Below, piece after piece: positions 1,332 through 15,228 of a stretch of DNA of 22,654 bases (position 1 is its first letter; each line of letters starts with the position of its first letter). The stretch lies in the IMG/VR virus record IMGVR_UViG_3300038463_000297, positions 1 to 22,654 of that record. One strand, given 5' to 3'. The notes beneath the pieces were generated by a model. That model was not told the DNA's origin and made no database searches. It was given only the letters and a program-made list of their open reading frames with translations. This stretch comes from a virus. A program made the translations under genes and the position numbers.

Positions 1332-3563
1332 GTGTCCCTTTCTATCGCTCAAACCAAAGACAACGAGGGTCTATCGACCAACGCGAATGGCGGCGTGCAG
1401 GTGAATGGCGTCGCTACGACGATGACCGCATCTGCGCTGACCAAAGGAAATACCGTTCTTGCGGTCTACACGCTGGCGCTGGATGCGCAGAACGGGCTTC
1501 CGCATACGGATTTAGGCGGCGCGGACAACCTCGGAAATACTTACACCGGCCCGTACAACGAGGTGAGCACTCCCAATCTTGGATCGGGTGGAACTGCGCA
1601 AACTCAAGCCTATATCATCGGTCAGAATCTCGCGACGGGCGGGACGAGCGGCAACAAAGGCACCGTCAATACCTACCTGAATGCGGCGGGCGGCGGCGAC
1701 ACCGAGGATTGGCAAGCCAACTTCATTGTTGAAATCGGCGGAGTCCCGGCCGGTTCATTGATTGCGACGAACGGAGCCGTGCATAACTCGGTTGCGGCGA
1801 ATGCCCTGTTTGGCGGCGGCGCGGTCACCATTGGTGCGAATCAAGTTCCCGCCTACATCTTCGCGACCGGGCAAAATACGGGAGCCCCTTCAGGGCAGAG
1901 CCCAACACCCACACCGATCGCTCAAGCACTGGCGGGAGCCACGCTCGTTTTTAGCGCGGCGCATTGGAATTGGGGGATGGGACCTGGCTATGAAGAAGCC
2001 GTCACCGCCTGCTGGCTCGTGACGACGGCGGGAACCTATACCCCGCAGTTCAAGAACAACCCGACGACGACGACCGAGTGCCTCTGCAACGTCGCCGCCT
2101 TCATGCAAACTGGACCTAGCGGCGCGGTGCTGGCCGCTGCCGCCGCAGACACGACGGCTGCCACCGCCAACATCACCGCGCAGGCGCTGCTCCTTTCCGC
2201 CGCGCAAAGCGCGACGGCAGCGGCAGCAACACTCGTAAATTACGCCTCCGTCACGCTTGCCGCTCCGCTCTACGTAGGCCCGGGCAGTCTTCTCGATCCG
2301 AATGCGGTGTGGACGAACGGGGCGCCGACGGTTGGCAGCGTCGTGTATTACGATCCCTCGGCGATGACGGTCGCGTCCGATGGCACGCTCGCGGGCTACA
2401 CGCAAAGTTTCACGACACTCGTGCAGTTCAACAACGCAGGCACCTGGAGCGATCTGTACATCACGTTCACCGGCAGCATGGTGGGCTACGCGGGAGACAC
2501 GACGAGAGCCACCGGCGCACTGGCGGCAACGCTCCTGTCGGGTAACGCCTCGGACACGACGACCGCCGCCGGACTCATCACCGTGGCCGGGTATCTGTCC
2601 GCCAATGCGGTCTCGCTCACGACGGCGGTTGGCAAGCTCACGGCTCAGGTCGCACTCGCTTCGCAGTCGGTCGACTTCACGCAAGCCTCGGGCTTGCTGA
2701 AGGTTGCAGCCGCCCTCTCGGCGGCAGCCACGGATGTCACGAGCGCGACGGGGAGCTTCGTGACGGCGGCGAGTCTTTCGGCCCATGCGCTCGATTCGAC
2801 AGTGGCGATCGGCGGTCTGTCGACGAATCAGATCGTCGGAGCGGCCATCGACACCACGACCGCGAGTGGCCTCATCACGGTGACCTCCAATCTCGCCGGG
2901 GCCGCTCAGTCGCTCTCATCCGCCACGGCGGCGCTCACCGTGCAGGTGGCGCTCGCCGCTCAGGCGCTCGATTTTACGGGCGCGAGTGGACAAATTACGG
3001 TGTTGCAACCCATCACAGGACAGGCGACCGACACCACGGTTGCCACCGGGTTCCTCTCCGTGGCAGGAATGCTGGCCGCAGCGGCGCAGGACGTGACGAT
3101 CGCTACCGCGAATCTTCAAACTCAGTCACTGTTCCTCGGTGCGGCGGTCAGCACTACGACGGCAACGGGAACGCTTCAGGCGCTCTCGCAGTTTGGCTCC
3201 GCGAATCTCGTGGCGGTGAGCCTCACCGGATTGCAGGGCGCGCAAAGCGCCTATCCGCAAGGCACCAGTTCGATCGTCACGGCGGAGTATCTCGACATTC
3301 ACGGCGTTCCCTTCGCGCCGCAGAATGTGCAGTACCGGATCGATGATCTCGTGAGCGGGGCGAACATCGTCCCGTGGACTCCGGTGACGCCGCTCGGCAC
3401 CACGAATGCGATCGTGATCACACAGGCGCAAAACGCGATGGTGAGCCTCACGCTCGAATCGGAGACCCATCAGCTGCTCATGCAGATCGAAGACGGCTAC
3501 GGGACGCCTTACTATGCGGACGTTCAGTTTGACATCGTGAGGGTCATCGGCACCAGCATATGA
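1332..3563 (+). CDS. Repeat-containing phage structural protein, likely fibre/appendage
   Basis: 743 residues from a GTG start 4 nt after the previous stop. Residues ~1-265 form a beta-rich domain (pattern DNLGNTYTGPYNEV ... FIVEIGGVPAGSL) of a type seen in phage surface proteins. Two degenerate repeat units lie at ~267-305, followed by a ~95-residue insert. Eleven contiguous ~20-residue units (residues ~401-620) share a pattern like LxAxAxDxTxAxGxLxV. The C-terminal ~120 residues (YRIDDLVSGANIVPW ... YADVQFDIVRVIG) resemble a small Ig-like domain found in phage virion proteins. No signal peptide or membrane segment. The regular repeat suggests an elongated beta-solenoid or fibre shaft, an inference. 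It overlaps the terminase start by 4 nt (ATGA), so the two are probably translationally coupled. Its exact virion position is unknown. Confidence 0.7.
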   Translation: MSLSIAQTKDNEGLSTNANGGVQVNGVATTMTASALTKGNTVLAVYTLALDAQNGLPHTDLGGADNLGNTYTGPYNEVSTPNLGSGGTAQTQAYIIGQNLATGGTSGNKGTVNTYLNAAGGGDTEDWQANFIVEIGGVPAGSLIATNGAVHNSVAANALFGGGAVTIGANQVPAYIFATGQNTGAPSGQSPTPTPIAQALAGATLVFSAAHWNWGMGPGYEEAVTACWLVTTAGTYTPQFKNNPTTTTECLCNVAAFMQTGPSGAVLAAAAADTTAATANITAQALLLSAAQSATAAAATLVNYASVTLAAPLYVGPGSLLDPNAVWTNGAPTVGSVVYYDPSAMTVASDGTLAGYTQSFTTLVQFNNAGTWSDLYITFTGSMVGYAGDTTRATGALAATLLSGNASDTTTAAGLITVAGYLSANAVSLTTAVGKLTAQVALASQSVDFTQASGLLKVAAALSAAATDVTSATGSFVTAASLSAHALDSTVAIGGLSTNQIVGAAIDTTTASGLITVTSNLAGAAQSLSSATAALTVQVALAAQALDFTGASGQITVLQPITGQATDTTVATGFLSVAGMLAAAAQDVTIATANLQTQSLFLGAAVSTTTATGTLQALSQFGSANLVAVSLTGLQGAQSAYPQGTSSIVTAEYLDIHGVPFAPQNVQYRIDDLVSGANIVPWTPVTPLGTTNAIVITQAQNAMVSLTLESETHQLLMQIEDGYGTPYYADVQFDIVRVIGTSI
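2532..3192 (+). repeat. Eleven degenerate ~60-bp (20-aa) tandem coding repeats
   Basis: About eleven in-frame units of close to 20 codons run without linkers. Examples of unit starts are LLSGNASDTTTAAGLITVAG, ALAAQALDFTGASGQITVLQ and PITGQATDTTVATGFLSVAG. Conservation is mainly at the protein level (hydrophobic-x-Ala, Asp/Ser-x-Thr, Ala-x-Gly). Alternate units are more alike (ALASQSVDFT / ALAAQALDFT; AVSLTTAVGKL / AQSLSSATAAL), suggesting duplication of a two-unit block. Confidence 0.75.
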
Positions 3564-4969
3564 GTGCCGTGCTTTTGGCTTCGGCGCGAAACCCGCTGCT
3601 GGAGACCGCGACGAAGATGGAACTGCTCCCGCCGAAGTTGCGGGACCTGTTCTTCGGGAAGAATGCCGCCAATCAGGCGGAGTTCATTTACAGCCGATAC
3701 AAGATCGCGCACGGCGGTCGCGGAGCGGCGAAGTCGGTCGGCTTCGCCAGTGTGCTCGTGGTCTTGGGTACGCTCAAGCGGCTTCGCATCCTGTGCGTTC
3801 GCGAGATGCAAAACTCGATCGAGGAGTCGGTATACGCCAACGTCAAGGCGCGCATCGAGGAACTCGGCCTCGGGCGTTACTACAACGTCATGGCGAATAC
3901 GATCGAGGGACTGAACGGCACACAGTTCATCTTCGCGGGAATCAAAAACAACACCGCGAAAATCCGCTCGATGCACGGGGTTAATATCTGCTGGGTCGAA
4001 GAAGCGGATGTGATCAGCGAGGATAGCTGGGAGATCCTGATTCCCTCCATCCGCCCGTCGGCGGAAGACCCGAATGCGATGTCGGAGATCTGGCTGTCGC
4101 TCAATCCCGGCGATGACAGTGATCCAACGACGATCCGCTTCCTGGATGATACGCCTCCCGATTGTCGGCGCGTCGAGGTGAACTACTACGACAATCCGTG
4201 GTTCCCGAAAGTCCTGGAGCTTGAGCGGCAAGCCGCCTTCGATAAGATCGCGAGAGCGGCGGATGACATCGCACGCGCGCACCTCAAGGCCACATACGAT
4301 CACGTATGGCTCGGCAAGCGGCGCAAGGTGCAGGGGGGCGCGTACTTCACCGAAGCGTGCTTGCTGTACAAGGGTGCGCCAGTCCAACCGGCCGAGCACA
4401 TCGAGTACATCTTCTGCACGATCGACACCGCGCTCAAGAGCGGTCGCGAAAACGATGGGTGTGGCTCGATCATCTGGAGTTTCACGCCGCACGAAGGCAT
4501 CGGGGTGAGCAAACTCACCATCCTCGACTGGGACTTGAAGCAAATTGATGGCGCGCTCCTCATCAACTGGCTTCCGGGTGTGTACGATCAGATGGAGTCG
4601 TGGGCGAAGCGGCTGAAGTGTCGCATGGGGGTCGCGGGCGCATTCATCGAGGATAAGGGTTCCGGCACGATCCTGATTCAGCAGGCTCGCCTTAAAGGTC
4701 TTCCCGTCCACGAGATCGATGGGCCGCTCACGAAGATGGGCAAGCAGGAGCGCACGCTCGACATCGCAGGCTACGTGCATGTCGGCGATGTGAAGATATC
4801 CCAGGAGGCATATGACCGCGTCGTCACCTACAAGAACGTGACGCGCAATCACCTGCTGCATCAGGTGCTCAAATTCACGCCGCTCGTGACCGATCAGATC
4901 GAAGATGATCTGCTCGACTGCTTCGACTACGGCATCGGGCTCACGCTCGGCAACCATGAGGGGTTCTGA
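3560..4969 (+). CDS. terL: Terminase large subunit (packaging ATPase/nuclease)
   Basis: 469 residues, a usual length for the family. The N-terminal ATPase has a Walker A (HGGRGAAKS, residues 51-59), a Walker B with catalytic acid (VNICWVEEAD, 141-150) and a coupling-type motif (WLSLNPGD, 178-185). The C-terminal RNase H-fold nuclease shows the expected acidic positions: Asp289 in CTIDTAL, Asp365 in IEDKGSG and the DDLLDCFDYG cluster at 449-458. The best family match by pattern is the PBSX/Terminase_3 type. The enzyme cuts concatemeric DNA and drives it through the portal into the prohead. The start overlaps the previous stop (ATGA), and the stop shares one base with the portal start. No small terminase is visible in the window; it may lie upstream or be unrecognised. 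Confidence 0.96.
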   Translation: MSAVLLASARNPLLETATKMELLPPKLRDLFFGKNAANQAEFIYSRYKIAHGGRGAAKSVGFASVLVVLGTLKRLRILCVREMQNSIEESVYANVKARIEELGLGRYYNVMANTIEGLNGTQFIFAGIKNNTAKIRSMHGVNICWVEEADVISEDSWEILIPSIRPSAEDPNAMSEIWLSLNPGDDSDPTTIRFLDDTPPDCRRVEVNYYDNPWFPKVLELERQAAFDKIARAADDIARAHLKATYDHVWLGKRRKVQGGAYFTEACLLYKGAPVQPAEHIEYIFCTIDTALKSGRENDGCGSIIWSFTPHEGIGVSKLTILDWDLKQIDGALLINWLPGVYDQMESWAKRLKCRMGVAGAFIEDKGSGTILIQQARLKGLPVHEIDGPLTKMGKQERTLDIAGYVHVGDVKISQEAYDRVVTYKNVTRNHLLHQVLKFTPLVTDQIEDDLLDCFDYGIGLTLGNHEGF

Positions 4970-6594
4970 TGGCAAACGATCCGAACATTCAGAACACGCC
5001 TGTCTCGATCGACTTCGGAGGCGTGGGAAGCGGAAATTCTCCTCTGATGTCGCTCCTGACGGCGGACGACATCGTGCCAGGCGCAGATCCCTCCTACAAC
5101 TTGTGCAAGGTGATCTTCGCATATCACCCGCTCGGCGGGAAGATGACCCAGTCGCCTGTCAAGATGGCGCAGGCGCAGCCCCGGCAGATAGCCGTGCAGG
5201 AAGCACCCGATGCAGTCGTGAAGGCGTTTGAAACCGAATGGTCGAAGTTGGGGTGTGATGATCACATCTGCAACACCACCACGATATCGCGCATGTATGG
5301 GATCGGTTCGATCGCGATGGGCTGCGTGGGGACTCCATCGAACGTGCCGCTCGATATGACGAAGATCTGGCAGGCGCAACTGTACTTCAACGTGCTCGAT
5401 CCCTTGAATACCTCGGGCTCGCTGGTGCTCTCGCAGGTATCGACGGCACCGGACTTCAACAAGCCGGTCACGCTCACATCGAGCGGGGAGACGTTTCACG
5501 CCTCGCGCTATCGCGTGATGATGAACGAAGACCCGATCTTTCTGCAGTTCACGACCTCGGCCTTCGGCTACGTCGGCCGAAGCGTCTTTCAACGGGCACT
5601 GTACCCATTGAAGGCGTACATCCGATTGATGATCGCGAACGACATGATCGCGACGAAGCTCGGGCTCCTGGTGGCGAAGACGCGCCCGCCAGGCCCAATC
5701 ATCAACCGCGTGATGCAGGTGATTGCTTCGGTGAAGCGGGCGCTTTTGAAGCAGGCGCAGACGGGTCAAGTGCTCACCGTCGACCCGGACGAAGACATCA
5801 CGACGCTCAACATGCAAAACGTCGACGGGGCGGGCACATACGCTCGCAACAACGTGATCAAGGACATCGCGACCGCGGCCGATATGCCTGCGATTCTCCT
5901 GGAGAACGAGACGCTCGCCACGGGATTTGCCGACGGCACCGAAGATGCGAAGACGGTCGTGCGCTACATCGAGGGGCTTCGCATGAAGATGCAGCCGCTG
6001 TACGCATGGTTCGATAACATCGTCATGTATCGTGCGTGGAATCCAGCGTTCTACGCCCGCATCCAGCGCCAGCACAAGGAATACATGAACGTCTCTTACG
6101 AGGATGCGTTTAGCCGATGGCGAGAAAATTTCACGGCATCGTGGCCCTCACTCCTGATCGAGCCGCGCTCGGAGACGATTCAGGTCGAGGACGTGAAGCT
6201 GCAGGCGATCTGTGCGGTCACTCAGACGTTGATTCCACTCATGGACCCGCTCAATCAGGCGAACGTGATCACCTGGCTTATGGACAACGTCAACGAGAAT
6301 GAGAACTTGTTCAAGCACAATCTCGAACTCGACATCCAGATGCTGGCGCAGTTCGCCGAAGAACAGCAGCAGCAAAAAGAGCAGCAGGCGCAGATGGGGG
6401 CGCAAGGCGGCGGTGAAGGTAGCGAAGAAGGTGGGCAGCAAGGCCCGGCACAGGCAATGGCACGAAAAGCGGCGAAATTCGACTCTGCTAAACTCGACAA
6501 CTCGCTTATGAAGCTTCGCACCATGCGTCTCGCAGATATCGAGCAGTCGAAGCAGAAGGGTCAAGTACCGCAATTTGCCAACTCACGGAGCTAA
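4969..6594 (+). CDS. Portal protein (DUF1073-like)
   Basis: 541 residues. The core pattern fits DUF1073/HI1409-type portals: a conserved helical stretch (SVFQRALYPLKAYIRLMIAN), a central region with TLNMQNVDGAGTYARNNVIK, then ATAADMPAILLENETLATGF and VRYIEGLRMKMQPLYAWFDN. The C-terminal ~90 residues are Gln/Glu/Gly-rich and low in complexity (EEQQQQKEQQAQMGAQGGGE), then basic. That is typical of portal tails that contact scaffold or internal proteins. It would form the dodecameric DNA channel at the capsid vertex. It begins on the last base of the terminase stop and is followed after 3 nt by the small membrane protein. Family assignment is by pattern, and position next to terL supports it strongly. 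Confidence 0.88.
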   Translation: MANDPNIQNTPVSIDFGGVGSGNSPLMSLLTADDIVPGADPSYNLCKVIFAYHPLGGKMTQSPVKMAQAQPRQIAVQEAPDAVVKAFETEWSKLGCDDHICNTTTISRMYGIGSIAMGCVGTPSNVPLDMTKIWQAQLYFNVLDPLNTSGSLVLSQVSTAPDFNKPVTLTSSGETFHASRYRVMMNEDPIFLQFTTSAFGYVGRSVFQRALYPLKAYIRLMIANDMIATKLGLLVAKTRPPGPIINRVMQVIASVKRALLKQAQTGQVLTVDPDEDITTLNMQNVDGAGTYARNNVIKDIATAADMPAILLENETLATGFADGTEDAKTVVRYIEGLRMKMQPLYAWFDNIVMYRAWNPAFYARIQRQHKEYMNVSYEDAFSRWRENFTASWPSLLIEPRSETIQVEDVKLQAICAVTQTLIPLMDPLNQANVITWLMDNVNENENLFKHNLELDIQMLAQFAEEQQQQKEQQAQMGAQGGGEGSEEGGQQGPAQAMARKAAKFDSAKLDNSLMKLRTMRLADIEQSKQKGQVPQFANSRS

Positions 6595-6789: not shown

Positions 6790-8415
6790 GTGGCATCGAA
6801 GCCGAACTACTATCAGGTGCTCGCCGCAGCACTCGCTGACTTCGAGATCCACGGGTTCGATTCACAGGAGCGGCTCGATCACTGGCTCGATGAGCTGGAG
6901 GAAGCTGCGCGCGGCAGTTGGGTCGACGAGGAGACGATCAAGCGGGATCTGGTCAAGCACCTGCATACGGTGCTCGATCGTACCCTCAAAGGCCGCCAAT
7001 TCTCCAAGGCTCATGCCGGATTGCAGCCCTTTCGGCTTCAGCACATCAAGCCGAAGCTGCACGCGGAGTTGCAGAATCGGATCATCGCCTCGACCAACCT
7101 GATCAAGCTCAATCGCGCCGAGTCGATCGCGCGGGCTCGCGCTCGGCTCGCAGGCTGGATGTCCTCGATCCCGCCGGGAGGTAAAACCGGCGAGGATTTC
7201 AAGGAATCCACGAAGACCGTGCGGCGCGGGATTGCCGGGGAGACATTCATCGAACGGCGCGTGATCATCGATCAGGGGCATAAGTTGAATGCCGCGATCA
7301 ACGACATCGTGGCGGTCGACGGAGGCGCGATCATCGCCACCTGGCGCCATGTGCATCGAGGGCTGCCGAGCTATCACCCGCGCCCCGAGCACGTCGCTCG
7401 CGATGGAAAAGTGTTCGTGATCCCCGGCAACTGGGCGCTCAAGGAGGGACTGATGAAGCCTGCCGGGCATCAGTTCACCGATGAGATCGAACAGCCGGGC
7501 GAGTTTGTTTATTGCCTACCGGGAGACACGCGGATTCCATTCGCTGATGGTGTGCGTAAAGCGTATCGGCGATGGTATTGCGGTCAATTGACCGAGTTTG
7601 TTACGGCTTCTGGTAAAACGCTGCGCGCGACACCGAATCACCCAGTTCTTACGTCGAACGGATGGATTGCGTCGGGCGCGCTTCAAAAAGGCGATGATGT
7701 GATTGAAGTTGCCAGTAATGGCATCGATGTCACAAAAGTGATTAATGAAAATAGTGCAATACCCCGAATCTCGGAGATTTTTTGTGCGTTGAGCGAGACG
7801 GCAACTGTGGTGCGTAAGGTTGGAATTAGAGATTGGTTCCACGGCGATGGAATCGTCGATAGCGATGTCGATATTGTAAATACCGCAAGGCCGCTGATGT
7901 TCGGCTTGGAATCCATGAAGGCGAAGTTCGTTCAGCAATTCGACTTCTCCGATACCGATGATTTTGGTTTTCGTATTAGCGCGTTTTATTCCTTCATCGA
8001 GCGATGCGCGACTGCCACGGCGAGCCTCATGGGCCTTAGCGACCAGAAGTTGTTTTTCAGCGTCGCTCATGCGGGCGCTGCGCAGGAATCCCGCTTGGGA
8101 ATTGTTGCGCAATTTGAGCCCCATGTTTCTTGCCAGCACGCCTCGCGACACATTGAGTCGTTTAGAGATGCTCAGCAGGCTTTCCCCTTTGAGGTACGAG
8201 TTACGCGCATCGTTGATATCAAAAATCGGGCGTGGTCTGGGCATGTGTATAATCTCGAAACCAATAATTCTGCATATATAGCCGAAGGAATCGTAACCCA
8301 CAACTGTGGGTGTTCTTACGACTACGGATACAATTTGCGAGACTTGCCGCCCGACATGCTCACCGCAAAGGGCAAAGCAGAATTGGAAAGCGTCCGCGCG
8401 ACGATGGCGCTTTAA
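6790..8415 (+). CDS. MuF-like minor head protein, interrupted by an in-frame intein
   Basis: 541 codons from a GTG with no clear Shine-Dalgarno, 12 nt after the preceding stop. Flanking parts: residues 1-241 and 506-541 (277 residues once joined). The N-terminal helical part leads to a MuF-type C-terminal block (TWRHVHRGLPSYHPRPEHVA, VFVIPGNWALKEGLMKPAG), which ends in GEFVY-CGCSYDYGYNLRDLP after splicing. This protein type (SPP1 gp7/Mu F family) sits at the portal inside the prohead and commonly lies just after the portal gene, as here. The intein (residues 242-505) splits the block exactly before the first Cys of the C-x-C motif. Without splicing the motif is disrupted, so production of a working protein probably depends on splicing. 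Confidence 0.88.
   Translation: MASKPNYYQVLAAALADFEIHGFDSQERLDHWLDELEEAARGSWVDEETIKRDLVKHLHTVLDRTLKGRQFSKAHAGLQPFRLQHIKPKLHAELQNRIIASTNLIKLNRAESIARARARLAGWMSSIPPGGKTGEDFKESTKTVRRGIAGETFIERRVIIDQGHKLNAAINDIVAVDGGAIIATWRHVHRGLPSYHPRPEHVARDGKVFVIPGNWALKEGLMKPAGHQFTDEIEQPGEFVYCLPGDTRIPFADGVRKAYRRWYCGQLTEFVTASGKTLRATPNHPVLTSNGWIASGALQKGDDVIEVASNGIDVTKVINENSAIPRISEIFCALSETATVVRKVGIRDWFHGDGIVDSDVDIVNTARPLMFGLESMKAKFVQQFDFSDTDDFGFRISAFYSFIERCATATASLMGLSDQKLFFSVAHAGAAQESRLGIVAQFEPHVSCQHASRHIESFRDAQQAFPFEVRVTRIVDIKNRAWSGHVYNLETNNSAYIAEGIVTHNCGCSYDYGYNLRDLPPDMLTAKGKAELESVRATMAL
7516..8244 (-). CDS. Putative Vsr-like (EDxHD) homing endonuclease, antisense within the intein
   Basis: The frame is open on the minus strand from 8301 to 7516. 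I choose the ATG at 8244 (MPRPRPIFDIND), giving 242 residues; a weak GAG lies 9-11 nt upstream. Residues ~16-42 look like an HTH-type DNA-binding segment (YLKGESLLSISKRLNVSRGV). A basic linker follows (RSARMSDAEKQLLVAKAHEA), then a nuclease core: Glu100 in GEVELLNEL, Asp126 in IYNIDIAID, Glu136 in IAVE, and His146...Lys155 in HHSCRLAQRTKNLRDSGY. This order matches Vsr-like homing endonucleases as I know them. The GG-x-WH segment that usually follows AVE is not recognisable (PISNSNLTH), so activity could be impaired. Its codons lie exactly opposite the intein codons, and its TAG stop is opposite intein codon 2. It would cleave intein-free alleles to drive homing (inference). Confidence 0.72.
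   Translation of the reverse strand: MPRPRPIFDINDARNSYLKGESLLSISKRLNVSRGVLARNMGLKLRNNSQAGFLRSARMSDAEKQLLVAKAHEARRGSRASLDEGIKRANTKTKIIGIGEVELLNELRLHGFQAEHQRPCGIYNIDIAIDDSIAVEPISNSNLTHHSCRLAQRTKNLRDSGYCTIFINHFCDIDAITGNFNHIIAFLKRARRNPSVRRKNWVIRCRAQRFTRSRNKLGQLTAIPSPIRFTHTISEWNPRVSR
8275..8303 (-). promoter_or_regulatory. Possible sigma70-type promoter for the antisense endonuclease gene
   Basis: Read on the minus strand, TTGTGG (8303-8298) and TATATA (8280-8275) are separated by exactly 17 nt. The predicted transcript would begin about 25 nt upstream of the ATG at 8244. Both boxes are imperfect (3/6 and 4/6 to consensus). The whole element lies inside the intein's last codons, so the mobile unit would carry its own promoter. 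This is a pattern match only. Confidence 0.3.
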
Positions 8416-8523: not shown

Positions 8524-8757
8524 ATGCCGTTGACATCCAAAGGTCGCGAGATCTTCGAGAATATGGCGAAGGAATACGGTGAGAAGAAAGGCGAGAGCGT
8601 GTTCTACGCCTCGCGAAACAAGGGCACGATCTGCGGCGTCGATGCTCAGTCTGTCGGCGGCCCGAAACTCGATCGGATCGTGACCGAGATCGACTCTCAC
8701 CGAAAACTCTCCGCGCTGATGGATGAGATCAAATCATTTCGAGCGGCTCATCCGTGA
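8524..8757 (+). CDS. Small conserved-type phage protein of unknown function, 77 aa
   Basis: ATG at 8524 with GAGGAG at 8512-8517, an ideal spacing, directly after the structured non-coding element. The 77-residue product is charged and mostly helical. It has a GREIFENMAKEYGEKKGESV stretch followed by FYASRNKGTICGVD. This KKGE..FYASxNKGxIxGVD pattern is one I recognise from short uncharacterised proteins in phage head operons and from DNA-manipulating phage genes, without a known function. No enzyme motif, signal peptide or membrane segment. Its stop overlaps the GTG of the next gene by 4 nt (GTGA), so the two are probably translated together. Confidence 0.8.
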   Translation: MPLTSKGREIFENMAKEYGEKKGESVFYASRNKGTICGVDAQSVGGPKLDRIVTEIDSHRKLSALMDEIKSFRAAHP

Positions 8758-10013
8758 TCCGCGCCGCAGGCATCATGTGTGTCGACCCGGATGGCCGGGT
8801 GCTTCTCATGCGCCGCACGGATGGCGAGGGATGGGCGTTCCCGGGCGGTCACGTCGAAGACGACGAGACGAGCGAGCAGGCGGCGCGGCGCGAGTTCGAG
8901 GAGGAGTGCGGCGTGCCGTTCAAGGGCAAGCTGCGATTCTGGACGAGGCGTATTCGCGATGGAGTGGATTTCACCACGTTCATCGGCGAGGTAACCCCGG
9001 GGTTTGCCGAGAGCGCACGGGCGGATTCTGACTGGGTGGAATCGAAACATCCGCGCGGTCAGCCCGAGAATGCCGGGCAATTTGCCTCGAAGGGACAGGG
9101 CGGCTATCACTCGGGCAATCAGCCGGTGCGCGAGCGCGAGGCGCCTCCGCCTCCGGCGCCCTCCGCTTTGCATCCAGGACTGGAGCGCGGGCCGAAGTCC
9201 AAGTACGCGCAGAATGCGATCCTCAAGGATCGGCTGGAGCAGTTTAATAACGAAGACTTCGTGATTGCGCAGATCCGCGATCTTCAGAGGCGCAACATCC
9301 ACCCGTATTCGGGTCGCGCGCTCGACATCAGCGAGACCTATATCACGCCGCAGGCGTTCGAGCAGTTGAAAAAGGATCTCGCGCCGGTGATCAAAAACGT
9401 GCGCTTGCCGATTCATGTGATCCCGGGACATTCCTGGGTACTGATCGATGGGCCGAATGGGGGTCCGGTTCCGATCAAACCGGCGGGTGGATTCATGGCG
9501 CACGCCAAAAAGTGGAGCGAGTGCCGGATCAACCTGTGCGCCGATGAGATGATCCGACACAACGTGGAGACCGGCGGATCACCGCAATTGACGTTGCTGC
9601 ATGAGGTGAATCACTTCAAATACTGCTGGGCAACGCGCTTCAGCCCGAACCGTGAGCGGGTGCAGCACTTCATCATGCAGAACATGGTGCGCCTCGCGGT
9701 CGAAGACGGGCATCACCCGAACTCCGCGCGTTACTGGGAAGCGGCGCAAGCGATTCTGTTGAAAGCCGGGGACTCGCCGGACCCACAGGCCGAAGCGCAG
9801 GCATTCGAGGCTGCGAATACGGCAGTCAATGAATCGCTCGCGTACAACTTCAACGACGATCTTGACGATGAGGGCAAGCCGATCGGCGCGATGTCGCAGC
9901 ACTGGGAGAAGTATCCGACCTATCACATGCTGCAAAAGATCGTCGATGAGGAATGGAAGACGCACGAGGAGCCGTGGAAATTCGATGTGGCCGCTAAGAG
10001 CAAAGTTGCATGA
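8754..10013 (+). CDS. Nudix hydrolase domain fused to an HExxH metallopeptidase-like domain
   Basis: 419 residues from a GTG overlapping the previous stop. Residues 1-~95 are a Nudix fold. The box is complete from Gly32 to Val54 (G-x5-E-x7-RE-F-x-EE-x-GV), with catalytic glutamates in REFEEECG, so pyrophosphohydrolase activity on a nucleoside-diphosphate-linked substrate is likely. Residues 96-117 are a linker (ESKHPRGQPENAGQFASKGQ), followed by a Pro-rich stretch (PPPPAP). Residues ~145-419 form a second domain with LTLLHEVNHF (HExxH at 283-287), a zinc-peptidase signature; the third ligand could be Glu360 in NESLAY. The domain is preceded by a Cys-containing strand (ECRINLCADEM). The stop overlaps the next start (ATGA). 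The Nudix call is secure. The peptidase call rests on one motif plus its setting. Confidence 0.82.
   Translation: MIRAAGIMCVDPDGRVLLMRRTDGEGWAFPGGHVEDDETSEQAARREFEEECGVPFKGKLRFWTRRIRDGVDFTTFIGEVTPGFAESARADSDWVESKHPRGQPENAGQFASKGQGGYHSGNQPVREREAPPPPAPSALHPGLERGPKSKYAQNAILKDRLEQFNNEDFVIAQIRDLQRRNIHPYSGRALDISETYITPQAFEQLKKDLAPVIKNVRLPIHVIPGHSWVLIDGPNGGPVPIKPAGGFMAHAKKWSECRINLCADEMIRHNVETGGSPQLTLLHEVNHFKYCWATRFSPNRERVQHFIMQNMVRLAVEDGHHPNSARYWEAAQAILLKAGDSPDPQAEAQAFEAANTAVNESLAYNFNDDLDDEGKPIGAMSQHWEKYPTYHMLQKIVDEEWKTHEEPWKFDVAAKSKVA
9039..9104 (+). repeat. Inter-domain linker motif, copy 0 (PRGQPENAGQF variant)
   Basis: Residues 96-117 of the Nudix/HExxH protein read ESKHPRGQPENAGQFASKGQ. This is a divergent relative of the EPR...GGGEWT linkers in the next two genes (Pro-Arg, a Gly-rich step, an aromatic, then Ser/Gly). 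It separates the two enzyme-like domains. Confidence 0.55.
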
Positions 10014-13000
10014 TGGGCGCTGATGCGAGCACCGTCGTCACCGACACCGGCATGTTCCAATATCGGGACGCCGATGGAATCGCGTGCGATCCCTCCGATG
10101 CCGTGCAGGTGTACATCCACGACTTTCGCACCGGCGGCACGATGCTCGCCGCGATCATGGCGCAGGAAGATCAAGACAACGCGCGGGCCGATGCGTATAA
10201 TCCGTCCGAACCTCGCAAGGGAAAAGGACCCGGAGGCGGCGAATGGACGAGCGGCGCAGCCGCAGGAGCATCCCATGATCGAAACCAATCCGCAGGCGCC
10301 GGACGATCCGCAGGACGAGGACGAGAAGCAGTTTCAGGCGCAGCTGCAAGATCTGTTCAAGGAAATGGAGGAGTCGGTGCCCCGCCACTTCGGAAAGACG
10401 GCAAACTCCAGCTCACCCACTACTCCAATCAAGCCAAACTCAGCGTCATAGATCCGGCCTTCTACGGCTCCGGCATCGCGGGTGCTGAGGCGTTTCGCAA
10501 GGCGAAAGAACCGAAGAACTGGGTCGATCGCACCTACTATGGGCTCGCCGTCGGGGAACCTGGCGGCTATCGCAAGGAACCGGGGCTAGGCCCCTACACC
10601 TACGGTGTCAGCGTCGATCCCTCGATGCTGTATGACCTCATTGGCGACCCCGATCACCTGCGTCCTCGCCCAGCGGGCTCCTCGATCAACCTGTACGAGA
10701 AGCGGATAAAGCAAGCCGGGTACTTGGGCTACTGGGTCAATCACCATTCCCTCGGCTACACCGCGGCGGTCTTTCAGCCGCTGAAGCCCGAGGGGCGCGC
10801 GGATCTGGAGGAGATGCGCCAGTTGGTGGAAGCGACGAAGAAGAACGGCGGAGTGAGCTATCAGCCGCTCACGCACGATTCTCCGAAGCCGGGCGATGAG
10901 GCGTATATGGTCTCCCCCTACCCGAATCGATCCGAAATCCTCGATGTCGCGAAGTTGACGCCGCAGCAACTCTCCGACTACGTGATGAAGAATCAGGACG
11001 TGCTCACGAAGCCGGATCACTATCTCGGGACGTGGCACGACACCGAAGGCACCGGCAAGGTCTTTCTCGATGTCTCGATCAAGGCGCCGACGCCGCAGGA
11101 AGCGACGAAGATTTGCATCGCGCAGAAGCAGATTGCATACTTCAGCTTCAAGGACATGCACTCGCATGATGTGCAGCCTGATAAACGCACTGAATGGGTT
11201 CCCGATGCCGCAGCAGCAACAGCAGATTCAGCACACCCTCGTTCCTGGCGCTCAAGCCGCGCGCCTGGAGAATATCGTCGCGATGTACGAGCGGCTGACC
11301 GGGCGCACCCTGACGCCGCAGGAGATCGAGCAGCTTCGCGCCCATCGCAAGGCGCAGGGTATCGAGGAGTAGCGGACGACTTCGACCCGAATGAGCCGCG
11401 CGTCCCGAAAGGCGGTAAGGGGGCCGGAGAGTGGACGGCCGGGAGCGGTCAGGGCGGTCAGCGGAATCTACCCCTCCATCGGACTTATCGAGCCTACGAT
11501 CAAGAACACGAAGCCTCCGCTATGGCGCATCGTCGAGAGCGCGATGCTGATATCGAGCGGGCGAATCAAGAGGCCAATCGGCGCAACAGGCATCACCCGC
11601 CTACGCAGCTGAGCAATTTGCCGAAGCGTCCCGGCTATCAGACGGTAGCCGGTCGCGGAGTGTCCTTGGGCGGCGAATCACTTCCGTTGATCAAGGATAA
11701 GGACACCCCGACGCAGATTTCGATGGTGAAAGGCTTCGAGAAGACGAGTGCCCCCTACGTCGTCCCACCGCAGCCGAACTATCGCATTTCCTCCGGCAAG
11801 TGGGTGACGGACCCGACAGATCACACCTTAAGCCCGTCGGAGTATCAGCGGCAAAACTCGAATCAGATCCGCCTGAAAGGGCAGCCGGGCATGGGCGGCG
11901 TCACTGGACAATCGATCGGTGATCTGCCGCCGAATCCGTCACTGTGGAAAGGGCGCGCGAAGCCCGGCTATCACGGCGCCGAGCCTCACTCGATCATCGA
12001 GCCTGAGCCTGCCGATCCGCACGCGCTGAGCGAAGTCGTCGGAAACCTTCAATTCCCGCAGCAGGGCACGGATATTGGCTCCGGTCACTGGGGGCACACC
12101 GGCGAGAGGGCGATAAACTCGCCAGGGTTCGTTTCCGAATCTGAGCCCGATCCTAGCCGCTTAGGGCCTGACGCCTCGAAGGGCTGGGAGCACACGGCCC
12201 GCACGGAGCCGTATTTCGGCACCGACGAGATGAGCCTCGATGCGCGCCAGTCGTATTGGGAGAAGCAAGCGAGAATGTGGCAGCGCGAAGTCGGGCGCCT
12301 GGAATACCATGAGCAAGCAGATCCTGAGCGCAAAGCCTTCGCCGGTGACAAGATGCGCGCAGCCGCCTTTCTCGCCGATCGGCTTCAGGAAGAAATCAAC
12401 GAACGAGACAAGACGCTCACGCCGCCGCCCACGCCGGAGTCAAGCGGTGCTTCTTACGATCCCGATGAAGATTCCGATCAATCCGATCGCGACTCTCGGA
12501 TTTGGGATGGCGATCAGATCAGTAAAGATTATGGCGGCCCGGGAGTCCCCAACTACGACCTGAGTCCGATGAGTGCTCACGCGGGCAACGCGGACTGGAA
12601 AAAAGGCGAAGTCAAAACGGTTAGGGTCGGAAAAGATGGAGACTGGGGTCACTACACCACCGATGAGATCGAGGTGATCAAAAACCCCTCGCCCACCCAG
12701 CTTGCCAACTGGGTCGAGACGCAGAACGACGGAAAGAACACAGATATCCGCTGGTTTGCAGACCCCGGGCACGGTGATATCTACTGCTTCGATGCCTCGC
12801 TCGGCTGGCACATTGGTCCCGTTCAGGCGCTCGGGCTTTCCTACCATGAGGCGTACCTGAATAGCGACAATATGACCGATGCCGAACATTGGCCGGAGCA
12901 GGTTGAGGAATACTTGGATCGCTGGCACAACGGGGATGCTTGGGGTCGATCGGAACTCACGACGCAAGAGGTAGACACCCTTCGCGAGAAGCTGGCCGAG

Positions 13001-14152
13001 CCCGTGGAGGAGTACGACCCGGAGGCCGAAGCGCGCCGCCGGACGGAGCTTCGCGAGATGCGCGGCGACTCGGTGCGCGCGGACGATTACAACCCAGATG
13101 AGCCCAGAAAGCCCGCGGGCGAGCAAGGCGGCGGAGAGTGGACGGGCAAGGGCGCAATCTCGGTGCCGACGGACATCGAGGCGGCGGACTTCGACACGCA
13201 TCGCACCATCGAGGCAGGAGCGGAGAATTCCAAGTTCGATCACGATCAGGCCGAGATCAATCGGAAACTCGACGGCGTCGATCACGAATTTATTCAGAAG
13301 AACAAGAGCGAAAAATCCGCCGATCTGATGGTGGACGTCGATGTGGATGACCGCATGGTGAAACATCAGGTCACACTCGATCTGACGACTCGGCTTAAGG
13401 ACAAGCCGGAATTTCAGTCGCTCAAACTCGCCTTCGAGACGATGAACGGGCAACAGGCGGGGGCAGCTGGACACCCGGAACCCGGTAGCATCGGAAGCCT
13501 TGAATCGTACTTGCTCAGCGAGTGGGCAGGCACTTCCGGCGATTCGAGTTACCCGTCTTGCGCCATGCAATGGGCCGCTCAAGAGCTATTCGGGATGCCG
13601 GAGCCGAAAGTGAGCTGGACCTCGATGGACAGCACCAAATACGGTGGCATGAAGGATGTGCTTGAGAAAACGAAGATTTATTTCGGCGCGAGCAAGATGA
13701 CGATGGATCAGTTCAAGAAGGGGCTGATGCAGTACATCCAGGCGATGTACGACAACACGCAAGAGCTGTTGAAAAAACAAGGCATCAAGGAGATTCCGCT
13801 GGTGCGCGGCATGGTGCTCGGCGGTCGTGGGGCACTCGCACCGACATTGGTGGATTTGAAGATGCAGCCGATCAGCGCGTTTTCCTTGAGTTATCCGGTT
13901 GCGAGGGATTTCGCGGGCACCCAAACGCATGGAATACTCGTGTTCACGAAGGTTCCCGCGAAGCGGGTTTTGAGCACGTATCTGTCCGGCTATGGATGCC
14001 GCTCCGAGCACGAAGTGACGGTCCTTGGAGGTGCCCCAACGAAGGCGATCGTGGTCGGCAAATTCCCCCTTAGCCACTCAAAAGAAAATGACGGCTATAA
14101 CGGGGTGATCATCAGAAACAAGGATCGTCTCAAGGAGACTGTCGAATTATGA
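10010..14152 (+). CDS. 1380-codon polyvalent accessory protein frame ending in an ADP-ribosyltransferase-like domain
   Basis: Starts at ATG 10010 (ATGA overlap). Visible parts: a short N-terminal domain (1-57); linker (59-82); a domain with LQLTHYSNQAKLSVIDP and YYGLAVGEPGGY (~128-395); linker (454-478); a long low-complexity and helical region (~480-865, coiled-coil-like at 745-800); a domain with EVIKNPSPTQLANWVE and DIRWFADPGHGDIYCFDAS (~867-945); linker (1022-1048); and a C-terminal R-S-E ADP-ribosyltransferase pattern. That pattern has Arg1266 in LVRGM, Ser1292/Ser1294 in FSLSYPVARDFA, and Glu1333/Glu1335 in SEHEVTVLGG. Residues ~89-124 and ~400-453 look out of frame (poor third-position GC, Arg/Ala/Gly-rich), while another frame there looks coding. 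The native product may therefore be two or three proteins. A role as an internal virion or injected effector is inferred. Confidence 0.7.
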   Translation: MMGADASTVVTDTGMFQYRDADGIACDPSDAVQVYIHDFRTGGTMLAAIMAQEDQDNARADAYNPSEPRKGKGPGGGEWTSGAAAGASHDRNQSAGAGRSAGRGREAVSGAAARSVQGNGGVGAPPLRKDGKLQLTHYSNQAKLSVIDPAFYGSGIAGAEAFRKAKEPKNWVDRTYYGLAVGEPGGYRKEPGLGPYTYGVSVDPSMLYDLIGDPDHLRPRPAGSSINLYEKRIKQAGYLGYWVNHHSLGYTAAVFQPLKPEGRADLEEMRQLVEATKKNGGVSYQPLTHDSPKPGDEAYMVSPYPNRSEILDVAKLTPQQLSDYVMKNQDVLTKPDHYLGTWHDTEGTGKVFLDVSIKAPTPQEATKICIAQKQIAYFSFKDMHSHDVQPDKRTEWVPDAAAATADSAHPRSWRSSRAPGEYRRDVRAADRAHPDAAGDRAASRPSQGAGYRGVADDFDPNEPRVPKGGKGAGEWTAGSGQGGQRNLPLHRTYRAYDQEHEASAMAHRRERDADIERANQEANRRNRHHPPTQLSNLPKRPGYQTVAGRGVSLGGESLPLIKDKDTPTQISMVKGFEKTSAPYVVPPQPNYRISSGKWVTDPTDHTLSPSEYQRQNSNQIRLKGQPGMGGVTGQSIGDLPPNPSLWKGRAKPGYHGAEPHSIIEPEPADPHALSEVVGNLQFPQQGTDIGSGHWGHTGERAINSPGFVSESEPDPSRLGPDASKGWEHTARTEPYFGTDEMSLDARQSYWEKQARMWQREVGRLEYHEQADPERKAFAGDKMRAAAFLADRLQEEINERDKTLTPPPTPESSGASYDPDEDSDQSDRDSRIWDGDQISKDYGGPGVPNYDLSPMSAHAGNADWKKGEVKTVRVGKDGDWGHYTTDEIEVIKNPSPTQLANWVETQNDGKNTDIRWFADPGHGDIYCFDASLGWHIGPVQALGLSYHEAYLNSDNMTDAEHWPEQVEEYLDRWHNGDAWGRSELTTQEVDTLREKLAEPVEEYDPEAEARRRTELREMRGDSVRADDYNPDEPRKPAGEQGGGEWTGKGAISVPTDIEAADFDTHRTIEAGAENSKFDHDQAEINRKLDGVDHEFIQKNKSEKSADLMVDVDVDDRMVKHQVTLDLTTRLKDKPEFQSLKLAFETMNGQQAGAAGHPEPGSIGSLESYLLSEWAGTSGDSSYPSCAMQWAAQELFGMPEPKVSWTSMDSTKYGGMKDVLEKTKIYFGASKMTMDQFKKGLMQYIQAMYDNTQELLKKQGIKEIPLVRGMVLGGRGALAPTLVDLKMQPISAFSLSYPVARDFAGTQTHGILVFTKVPAKRVLSTYLSGYGCRSEHEVTVLGGAPTKAIVVGKFPLSHSKENDGYNGVIIRNKDRLKETVEL
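10184..10255 (+). repeat. Inter-domain linker motif, copy 1
   Basis: Residues 59-82 of the 1380-codon frame contain NPSEPRKGKGPGGGEWTSG. It is almost the same as copy 4 at 14233-14304 in protein, and similar in DNA (both contain a CCTCGCAAGGG core followed by a Gly-run and GAxTGGAC). Confidence 0.85.
10275..10451 (+). CDS. Candidate nested small gene (58 aa) in the +1 frame of the 1380-codon ORF
   Basis: ATG at 10275 is preceded by AGGAG at 10264-10268, a strong site at good spacing. The product begins MIETNPQAPDDPQDEDEKQF and continues QAQLQDLFKEMEES, an acidic amphipathic helix. By hand count its third positions from 10275 to ~10395 are about 80% G/C, against about 25% for the overlapping large frame there, so this frame looks like the coding one. 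Its last ~20 residues (Ser/Thr/Pro-rich, overlapping LQLTHYSN in the large frame) look like shadow sequence. That suggests translation would pass back to the large frame at about 10375 (GTGCCCCGCC), by a -1 frameshift or because a base is missing in this sequence. Confidence 0.5.
   Translation: MIETNPQAPDDPQDEDEKQFQAQLQDLFKEMEESVPRHFGKTANSSSPTTPIKPNSAS
11205..11372 (+). CDS. Candidate nested small gene (55 aa) in the +1 frame of the 1380-codon ORF
   Basis: From ATG 11205 the frame reads MPQQQQQIQHTLVPGAQAAR, then LENIVAMYERLTGRTLTPQE and IEQLRAHRKAQGIEE, ending at TAG 11370-11372. It looks like a small helical protein. By hand count about 80% of its third positions are G/C, against about 40% for the large frame over the same bases. 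An upstream in-frame ATG at 11169 is also possible. There is no strong ribosome site. The large frame resumes convincing sequence (VADDFDPNEPR linker) exactly where this frame stops, and there is no usable start codon between. Nested gene, frameshift or indel are the options. Confidence 0.45.
   Translation: MPQQQQQIQHTLVPGAQAARLENIVAMYERLTGRTLTPQEIEQLRAHRKAQGIEE
11369..11443 (+). repeat. Inter-domain linker motif, copy 2
   Basis: Residues 454-478 of the 1380-codon frame contain DPNEPRVPKGGKGAGEWTAG, the same EPR...G-rich...GEWT plan as copies 1, 3 and 4. Confidence 0.8.
13073..13153 (+). repeat. Inter-domain linker motif, copy 3
   Basis: Residues 1022-1048 of the 1380-codon frame contain NPDEPRKPAGEQGGGEWTGK. 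It lies directly before the ~330-residue ADP-ribosyltransferase-like part and follows a charged helix (EYDPEAEARRRTELREMRGD). Confidence 0.85.
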
Positions 14153-15228
14153 GCGAGCTGAACGTCGACGACTGCATCGAGAACGCCGACTGGATCAAGG
14201 CCGCTGCGAAACGTCGCGCGGCGGCGGCCTCTGCTCGCGCCGACTATGATGCCGGCGAGCCTCGCAAGGGTAAAGGGCCTGGCGGCGGGGAGTGGACCTC
14301 CGGCGGCGCAGGCGGCGCGAAAGGCGGCGATAAGCCGGTGCCTAAGTGGAGTGAGAATCTGCCGCACAAGGACCCGGCCGCATACTTCGGCGGCACCGAG
14401 ATCCTGCCCGATCAGTCCGGCGTCTATCACGTCGGCAAGAACTTGGATGCCGCGGTCGAACTCCTCGGGCGTGGCAAGGATGTGGATCTCGAACAGCCGC
14501 GCGAAGTCGCCACCCTCATGGATAAACTCGCCGCGATCGGCCGCGAGGCGGCTAAGGGAGTGAAAAGGGTGTACGACCTGTGCCACGTCACGGTCGCCAA
14601 TACGAACCTCTTTTGCGTCGAGCACGTCGGCATTCCGCGCGCCAAGATGCCGCAGTTGAAGGGCGTCCCCGCGAAGGGAAGCCGGGGGGCGGAGTTGGAG
14701 CCCAACAAAAAGGGCGAGGTGGACTTAAGCAAGCACTTCCGCCATCACCTGGAGAAGCACGGGTACGATGTGCTCAAGGCGACGGAGGATGCCTCCTACC
14801 TTCGTGCGAGCCAACGCGAACTCGATGGCGTCAAGATCGCCGGGATGATGCAGGCGATCAAGGAAGGCAAGGTCCCCGACAATCGGATATGGGTGACGCG
14901 CGACAACTACGTACTCGATGGGCATCACCGCTGGGCCGCGCAAGTTGCCCTCGAATACATCGAGGGCAAGCCCATCCCGATGAAGGTCTTCAAGGTCGAT
15001 ATGTCGATCACGGATGCGATCCGGGATGCGAATCATTTCGCCGCGAAGTGGGGCATCGCTCAGCAAGCGGTTGGAGCACCGAGTCCGAAGGCAAAAGCGG
15101 ATAGCGTCTGCACCTCCTGCGGCGCAGGCGTGCGCTCGGATTCGAGCGACTTATCGAAGGTCGATGAGATCCTCACGCACCTGAAGGCCGGAGAGATTCT
15201 CTCGGAACTTAAGAAGTTCGAGAAGTGA
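14149..15228 (+). CDS. ParB-like nuclease-domain protein with N-terminal linker motif
   Basis: 359 residues, ATGA overlap with the previous gene. Residues 1-28 are an Ala/Arg-rich helix, and 29-52 are the EPRKGKGPGGGEWT linker. The body has VYDLCHVTVANTNLFCVEHV and IPRAKMPQL (~141-170), then HLEKHGYDV, and a ParB/sulfiredoxin-fold signature NRIWVTRDNYVLDGHHRWAA (245-264) with DGHHRW at 257-262. In this superfamily that motif contributes to nucleotide or phosphate chemistry; phage members are often annotated as ParB-like nucleases. A single CTSCG knuckle sits near the C-terminus (321-325), followed by a short helix. It is the last gene of the accessory block and overlaps the head-protease gene by 4 nt. 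Substrate unknown; DNA nicking or NTP-dependent modification are both possible. Confidence 0.75.
   Translation: MSELNVDDCIENADWIKAAAKRRAAAASARADYDAGEPRKGKGPGGGEWTSGGAGGAKGGDKPVPKWSENLPHKDPAAYFGGTEILPDQSGVYHVGKNLDAAVELLGRGKDVDLEQPREVATLMDKLAAIGREAAKGVKRVYDLCHVTVANTNLFCVEHVGIPRAKMPQLKGVPAKGSRGAELEPNKKGEVDLSKHFRHHLEKHGYDVLKATEDASYLRASQRELDGVKIAGMMQAIKEGKVPDNRIWVTRDNYVLDGHHRWAAQVALEYIEGKPIPMKVFKVDMSITDAIRDANHFAAKWGIAQQAVGAPSPKAKADSVCTSCGAGVRSDSSDLSKVDEILTHLKAGEILSELKKFEK
14233..14304 (+). repeat. Inter-domain linker motif, copy 4
   Basis: Residues 29-52 of the ParB-like protein contain AGEPRKGKGPGGGEWTSG, matching copy 1 at 10184-10255 over most positions. It is at the N-terminus here, after a short basic helix. 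Confidence 0.85.

Follow-up and report, generated by a model that had tools for sequence, protein, structure and literature searches.

A phage intein that appears to carry a Vsr-like homing endonuclease gene on its opposite strand

We describe an insert in a phage head gene that is best explained as a mobile intein for which both DNA strands code: the plus strand would specify the splicing element and the minus strand a separate nuclease with helix-turn-helix (HTH) motifs and a Vsr-like fold, through which the element would home. Judging from sequence comparison, we put the probability of this reading at about 0.88. With only slightly less assurance, we take the element to represent a class of inteins, widespread in phages, whose splicing element and homing endonuclease overlap fully on opposite strands, with a promoter and ribosome-binding site in the C-terminal splicing blocks and a dual-coding stretch of 12 bp. 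A full-text literature search turned up no earlier account of an intein whose homing nuclease is antisense.

The window (the whole stretch of 22,654 nucleotides that was analysed) is a phage record in which Pfam and phrog annotation place terminase (3560-4969) and portal (4969-6594) genes upstream of a MuF-like ORF (phrog_15127 head protein, 1.3e-44; phrog_324, 7e-12). The features discussed below are as follows.

6790-8415, plus strand: MuF-like minor capsid/head morphogenesis ORF, intein host, 541 aa precursor
7513-8304, plus strand: intein of 264 aa, Cys1 to His-Asn, then Cys+1 (Pfam Intein_splicing, TIGR01443/01445, AF2 and Foldseek)
7513-7716, plus strand: N-terminal splicing blocks A and B (C1, T40, N42 and H43 invariant in 40 relatives)
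8239-8304, plus strand: C-terminal blocks F and G, GHVYNLET...THN (H244, L248 and N264 invariant; synonymous-null test)
7516-8244, minus strand: predicted gene for an HTH and Vsr-like endonuclease of 242 aa, running from ATG to TAG (sequence, profile, AF2)
8107-8217, minus strand: HTH region of the nuclease (AF2 helices 10-18, 23-30 and 34-41; HTH_38/HTH_7 in relatives)
7666-7965, minus strand: Vsr-like nuclease domain, residues 94-193, with E100, Y123-N124-x-D126, A134-V135-E136 and R153
7537-7647, minus strand: C-terminal beta hairpin of the nuclease (strands 200-214 and 220-236), opposite intein blocks A/B
7837-7848, no single strand: dual-coded 12 bp, sense FHGD opposite an antisense stretch ending in the catalytic AVE (codon bias)
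8254-8256, minus strand: weak Shine-Dalgarno-like GAG, 9 bases before ATG 8244 (GGAGG/GAGG in most relatives)
8275-8303, minus strand: weak promoter-like TTGTGG-N17-TATATA (by eye; relatives often have TATAAT here)

The first-pass annotation had read the plus strand as an in-frame intein with no endonuclease that could be recognised, and both parts of this reading hold. Cys1 (7513), block B TPNH (7630-7641), block F GHVYNL, the terminal HN (8299-8304) and Cys+1 all lie in frame with both flanking exteins of the MuF-like ORF, so the insert has the make-up of a class 1 Hint intein (Cys1, TxxH, terminal HN or SN, Cys/Ser/Thr at +1, in-frame exteins). Pfam Intein_splicing scores it at 37.4 bits against a cut-off of 35.8, TIGR01443/01445 match as well, and no nuclease was detected on the sense strand of the window intein. 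The AF2 model of the sense product is confident at the ends, which form the splicing domain (pLDDT 86-98), and mostly at 75-93 in codons 81-130; Foldseek returns Mtu RecA and other inteins as its best matches, a splicing-domain fold. In codons 134-149 and 171-213 pLDDT falls below 50, and the middle is predicted to be disordered. This disorder would suit an intein that no longer splices, with MuF working with the insert in place, or a Hint domain with some other function. We regard such a loss of splicing as very improbable, as C1, T40, N42, H43 and the terminal Asn are invariant across the 40 aligned relatives, the +1 residue is usually Cys (Thr at one alternative site), and in deaminase genes the insertion falls at the Zn-ligand motif PCxxC, where splicing would be required. 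We infer that the window intein splices from MuF.

On the minus strand, as had been noted, the frame is open from 8301 down to a stop at 7518-7516 that lies opposite intein codon 2, and the codon boundaries of the two strands coincide. The start had been placed inside the intein, which stands, but at GTG 8301, which does not: translation almost certainly begins at ATG 8244, giving 242 aa. The position of this codon is conserved across the antisense family as ATG or GTG, two relatives (L108, L109) have a stop codon just upstream of it, and a Shine-Dalgarno-like site lies 5' of the ATG; on these grounds GTG 8301 was rejected.

The HTH-like N-terminus proposed for this product is supported by the AF2 helices, by HTH families in relatives (HTH_38 in 10 of 17) and by resolvase HTH matches of the family profile. 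REase_MTES_1575 was found in 9 of the 17 (best 1.1e-4), and the profile of the antisense family matches 3hrl (1e-4) and I-Bth0305I (3r3p, 0.0024) in the PDB. The window protein by itself stays below the curated Pfam cut-offs (MTES_1575 15.9 versus 38.2 bits, DUF559 12.5 versus 20.6), and single-sequence phmmer against the PDB gave no match, a profile being required. Among 43 relatives residues E100, Y123, N124, D126, A134 and E136 are invariant and V135 and R153 nearly so. The product had been described as Vsr-like with an EDxHD motif. The first term fits, the second in part: Glu and Asp (E100, D126) are invariant in the 43 sequences, but the residue at the His position varies among the antisense relatives, and we therefore file the protein as Vsr-like rather than strict EDxHD.

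Structure prediction agrees. The 242-aa product is modelled by AF2 at a pLDDT of 92.4 (about 92 versus 75 for the sense product), with the C-terminal hairpin at 87-97. VIA-align puts Vsr with DNA first (1cw0, Z 11.6 over 114 residues, 2.7 A), followed by 1vsr (Z 11.1), 3r3p (Z 9.4; I-Bth0305I, an EDxHD homing endonuclease encoded in a group I intron of a phage) and 3hrl (Z 8.7); the alignment to Vsr reaches antisense residue 237. A score of Z 9.5 was also reached by 9i05_Xi, a chain whose title is unrelated. Foldseek against the PDB was weak (3r3p at E 0.38, probability 0.91, with unrelated chains ranked first), and given these poor E-values the structural case rests on VIA-align and the profiles. 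By the 1cw0 and 3r3p matches the model has a Vsr-type fold, and the likeness to Vsr-like and I-Bth0305I-type nucleases on which the earlier reading depended does appear (3hrl, 3r3p, 1cw0). The models thus support a Vsr-like nuclease with HTH motifs as the predicted minus-strand product.

By sequence similarity the window pair belongs to a large, unannotated family. A tblastn search with the antisense protein matched 108 phage records (best 34% identity, E 8e-25) from phages of Haemophilus/Aggregatibacter, Vibrio, Klebsiella, Gordonia, Edwardsiella, Pseudomonas and Salmonella; among the records listed, the annotated feature opposite the antisense gene is a head/MuF or hypothetical protein. The sense intein protein reached only E 2e-14 to 7e-10 among the matches listed, and the antisense protein is thus the better conserved of the two. 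Profile scans of IMG/VR gave 225 and at least 493 related stretches, of which the best 80 of each were retained for inspection (an initial profile of 17 sequences was too diverse for a genome scan, and a closer subset led to two MAG loci only). The 172 loci read in detail (89 and 83, near-duplicates counted) were found by similarity to the nuclease and not to the intein, and in all 172 the nuclease gene lies antisense to an intein; among these loci, with the best 80 matches of each scan retained, no free-standing copy of the nuclease subfamily was seen. The codon-aligned sense frame is without a stop in all but one locus of either set (88/89 and 82/83, together 170/172), the two frame-broken members (L009, L183) having one sense stop each, while other sense frames contain up to 47. 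The expectation that homologous inteins would also keep an open antisense frame was borne out, with both strands open and the antisense protein conserved in the shared middle. In four loci (L161, L162, L163, L168) the intein match starts at profile position 13-23, a pattern suggestive of a frameshifted or decayed N-terminal block, and one sense ORF (L192) may contain a second, partial intein match.

Long antisense ORFs are commonest in the codon-aligned register of G+C-rich genes, which is the register found here, and TTA, CTA and TCA codons are stops on the opposite strand in that register. The antisense frame could then be open by chance, through avoidance of these codons, and its nuclease look be a shadow of the intein. 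Against this, relatives at G+C 0.37-0.44 are built alike, with the aligned frame open and 26-46 stops in the worst other frame; within the shared core conservation is higher for the antisense protein, opposite to what a shadow would give; the antisense model stands at pLDDT 92 and the sense model at 75, with its middle predicted disordered; and the antisense start, like the signals upstream of it, shows conservation at synonymous sites. We give a chance ORF almost no credence, and it is ruled out by the mirror periodicity of codon change described next.

The antisense genes contain no TTA, CTA or TCA codon, where the codon usage of the exteins would predict 454 (for the sense side the corresponding figure, 602, follows by construction of the ORF search). 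Across 11 gap-free inteins of Guernseyvirinae, the exteins show 0.61/0.35/1.64 and 0.27/0.17/1.42 changes per codon at sense positions 1/2/3 and blocks F/G 0.06/0.06/0.82, while codons 121-200 of the same inteins show 0.88-1.12/0.10-0.18/0.30-0.35. The same holds for 18 independent pairs: N-exteins show 0.11/0.06/0.40 differences per codon and blocks F/G 0.09/0.06/0.28, the intein core 0.33/0.12/0.22. In 18/18 pairs the core has more differences at position 1 than at position 3, and the order is reversed in the N-exteins of all 10 pairs that could be aligned. Substitutions in the shared region thus fall at the wobble position of the nuclease, and those in the exteins and C-terminal splicing blocks at that of the intein. 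This mirror pattern indicates that constraint lies on the nuclease in the middle of the intein and on the splicing domain at its C-terminal end; codons 1-65 show a mixed pattern. Comparative evidence shows the predicted antisense HTH and Vsr-like nuclease to be under purifying selection.

Opposite FHGD, the antisense AVE is written almost always with the same codons (Ala GCC in 103, Val GTG in 99 and Glu GAA in 98 of 104), whereas elsewhere in the antisense frame the shares are 43% for GCC, 18% for GTG and 47% for GAA. Codon choice so far above background implies that FHGD is more conserved than the nuclease requires, and constraint on these 12 bp appears to come from both proteins, or from a role as a DNA element.

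The opposite strand of blocks F/G holds the antisense start codon and its upstream signals. The start lies opposite the block-F His codon, CAT (ATG) or CAC (GTG), and CTC encodes the Leu of block F in 43 of 53 (25% in exteins), a choice that places GAGG or GAG ahead of the start. Synonymous recoding of 110 upstream regions, which are not independent sequences, served as the null: against it GGAGG was observed 29 times (8.3 expected), TATAAT 39 (7.4), TGnTATAAT 17 (1.5) and TTGACA-N16-18-TATAAT 10 (0.16). The window copy of the promoter-like element is far from consensus, and a consensus promoter scan called nothing in the window itself. For the family, the comparison shows block F/G codons to hold a putative ribosome-binding site, joined in many members by a sigma70-like promoter. 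As the antisense gene opposes the structural transcript, it may be expressed in one phase of infection only.

Relatives differ in whether they carry the insert. When the Salmonella phage VSe101 region was used for a nucleotide search, 55 of 407 matching phage records covered at least 80% of the query, and many others had both flanks at about 85-91% identity without about 817 bases. In JD01 and SETP3 the VSe101 intein position is empty (HPN|CRS), with the junction exactly at the insertion Cys; intein-plus and intein-minus MuF alleles both occur among Salmonella Jerseyviruses. Copies of the module also occupy other positions in MuF, one of them preceding Thr in a Chromatium MAG, and dCMP deaminase genes of Virus Rctr197k (PF00383, 2.9e-10) and an IMG/VR phage carry it at the PCxxC motif. 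From this polymorphism and the multiple sites we infer that the element is mobile. Distances in the splicing blocks track those in the nuclease core (Mantel r 0.64), and N-extein distances correlate with those of the splicing blocks (0.60) and of the nuclease (0.70); the last value indicates that much of the inheritance is vertical.

Most likely the antisense nuclease spreads the insert to new genes by homing. An antisense transcript would yield the nuclease as a separate protein, which would cut intein-free host-gene alleles at the insertion Cys; repair from an intein-bearing copy would install the whole element, and the intein would splice out of MuF to leave a functional capsid protein. With the nuclease nested wholly within the splicing element the two are tied, since DNA that carries one carries the other. 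The antisense gene might instead be real but a lodged nuclease or DNA-binding regulator, acting for instance against rival phages: homing nucleases can exclude competitor phages, and HTH domains could also regulate. We consider a role other than homing unlikely, given that none of the 172 loci has a free-standing gene, that the gene keeps within the intein boundaries at several insertion sites in two host genes, and that presence and absence of the intein alternate at the exact site, as a homing enzyme predicts.

Published accounts have treated the homing endonuclease of an intein as one of its in-frame domains. I-Bth0305I resembles the antisense protein in catalytic-domain fold (Z 9.4), in the E and D positions and in having DNA-binding modules beside the nuclease, but it is intron-encoded, and the motif His is not conserved in the antisense family. 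Vsr-like nucleases beside split inteins, in 'fractured genes', were reportedly described by Dassa et al. in 2009; there too a Vsr-like nuclease is associated with phage inteins, but it is free-standing between the intein halves and does not overlap them. Canonical inteins with LAGLIDADG or HNH domains (e.g. PI-SceI) likewise combine splicing element and nuclease into one mobile unit at a conserved site, but with the nuclease fused in frame (PMC3943268) and not a separate gene on the other strand. The nearest system is the ShiLan domain, a phage methylase insertion that hides an out-of-frame HNH endonuclease (PMC11855218, 2025). It shares a stop-free in-frame insertion in a phage gene, a nuclease in another frame and a sporadic, mobile distribution; in ShiLan, however, the frame is on the same strand, the nuclease is HNH and a splicing domain was not found, whereas here the strand is opposite, the nuclease Vsr-like and the splicing blocks intact. 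Nuclear group I introns also carry homing endonuclease genes antisense to the host gene (PMC9548176), but the intron is RNA, the nuclease is of the His-Cys type and the splicing element does not code for protein. For Guernseyvirinae, the searched text of PMC6776784 and PMC8425127 reports inteins in the same capsid morphogenesis gene (Jerseyvirus, Snoke, UPWr_S), and that of PMC6776784 an intein-free K1ind2; those portions make no mention of an antisense gene, nor for Snoke of any endonuclease.

If our reading is right, mobile inteins can be built another way, with the nuclease as a separate antisense gene inside the splicing element, and mini-inteins of annotated genomes may hide a nuclease on the opposite strand. 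Antisense overlap of functional proteins is a disputed subject; the codon-position predictions are clear here, and the family offers strong comparative evidence that such an overlap, long and old, exists in bacterial viruses. Homing could be tested directly in the Salmonella Jerseyviruses, which are well studied and include both carriers of the element and phages that lack it.

Several annotations at these loci deserve mention. In L115 (KX853510.1, 1165-2517) an intein-bearing dCMP/cytidine deaminase is annotated as a head morphogenesis protein, a name possibly carried over from the intein. Intein-bearing MuF genes of Salmonella phages ZCSE7, NBSal007 and TU03 are named NAD+--asparagine ADP-ribosyltransferase. 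In the window, the 419-aa ORF at 8754-10013 starts with a NUDIX domain (3.9e-17), its remainder being without a Pfam match at E 0.01. ORFs 10010-14152 and 14149-15228, neither with a Pfam match, contain repeated copies of a motif like YNPSEPRKGKGPGGGEWTSG, and by eye the C-terminal end of the first (1380 aa) resembles ADP-ribosyltransferases, with an R...S...E-like order.
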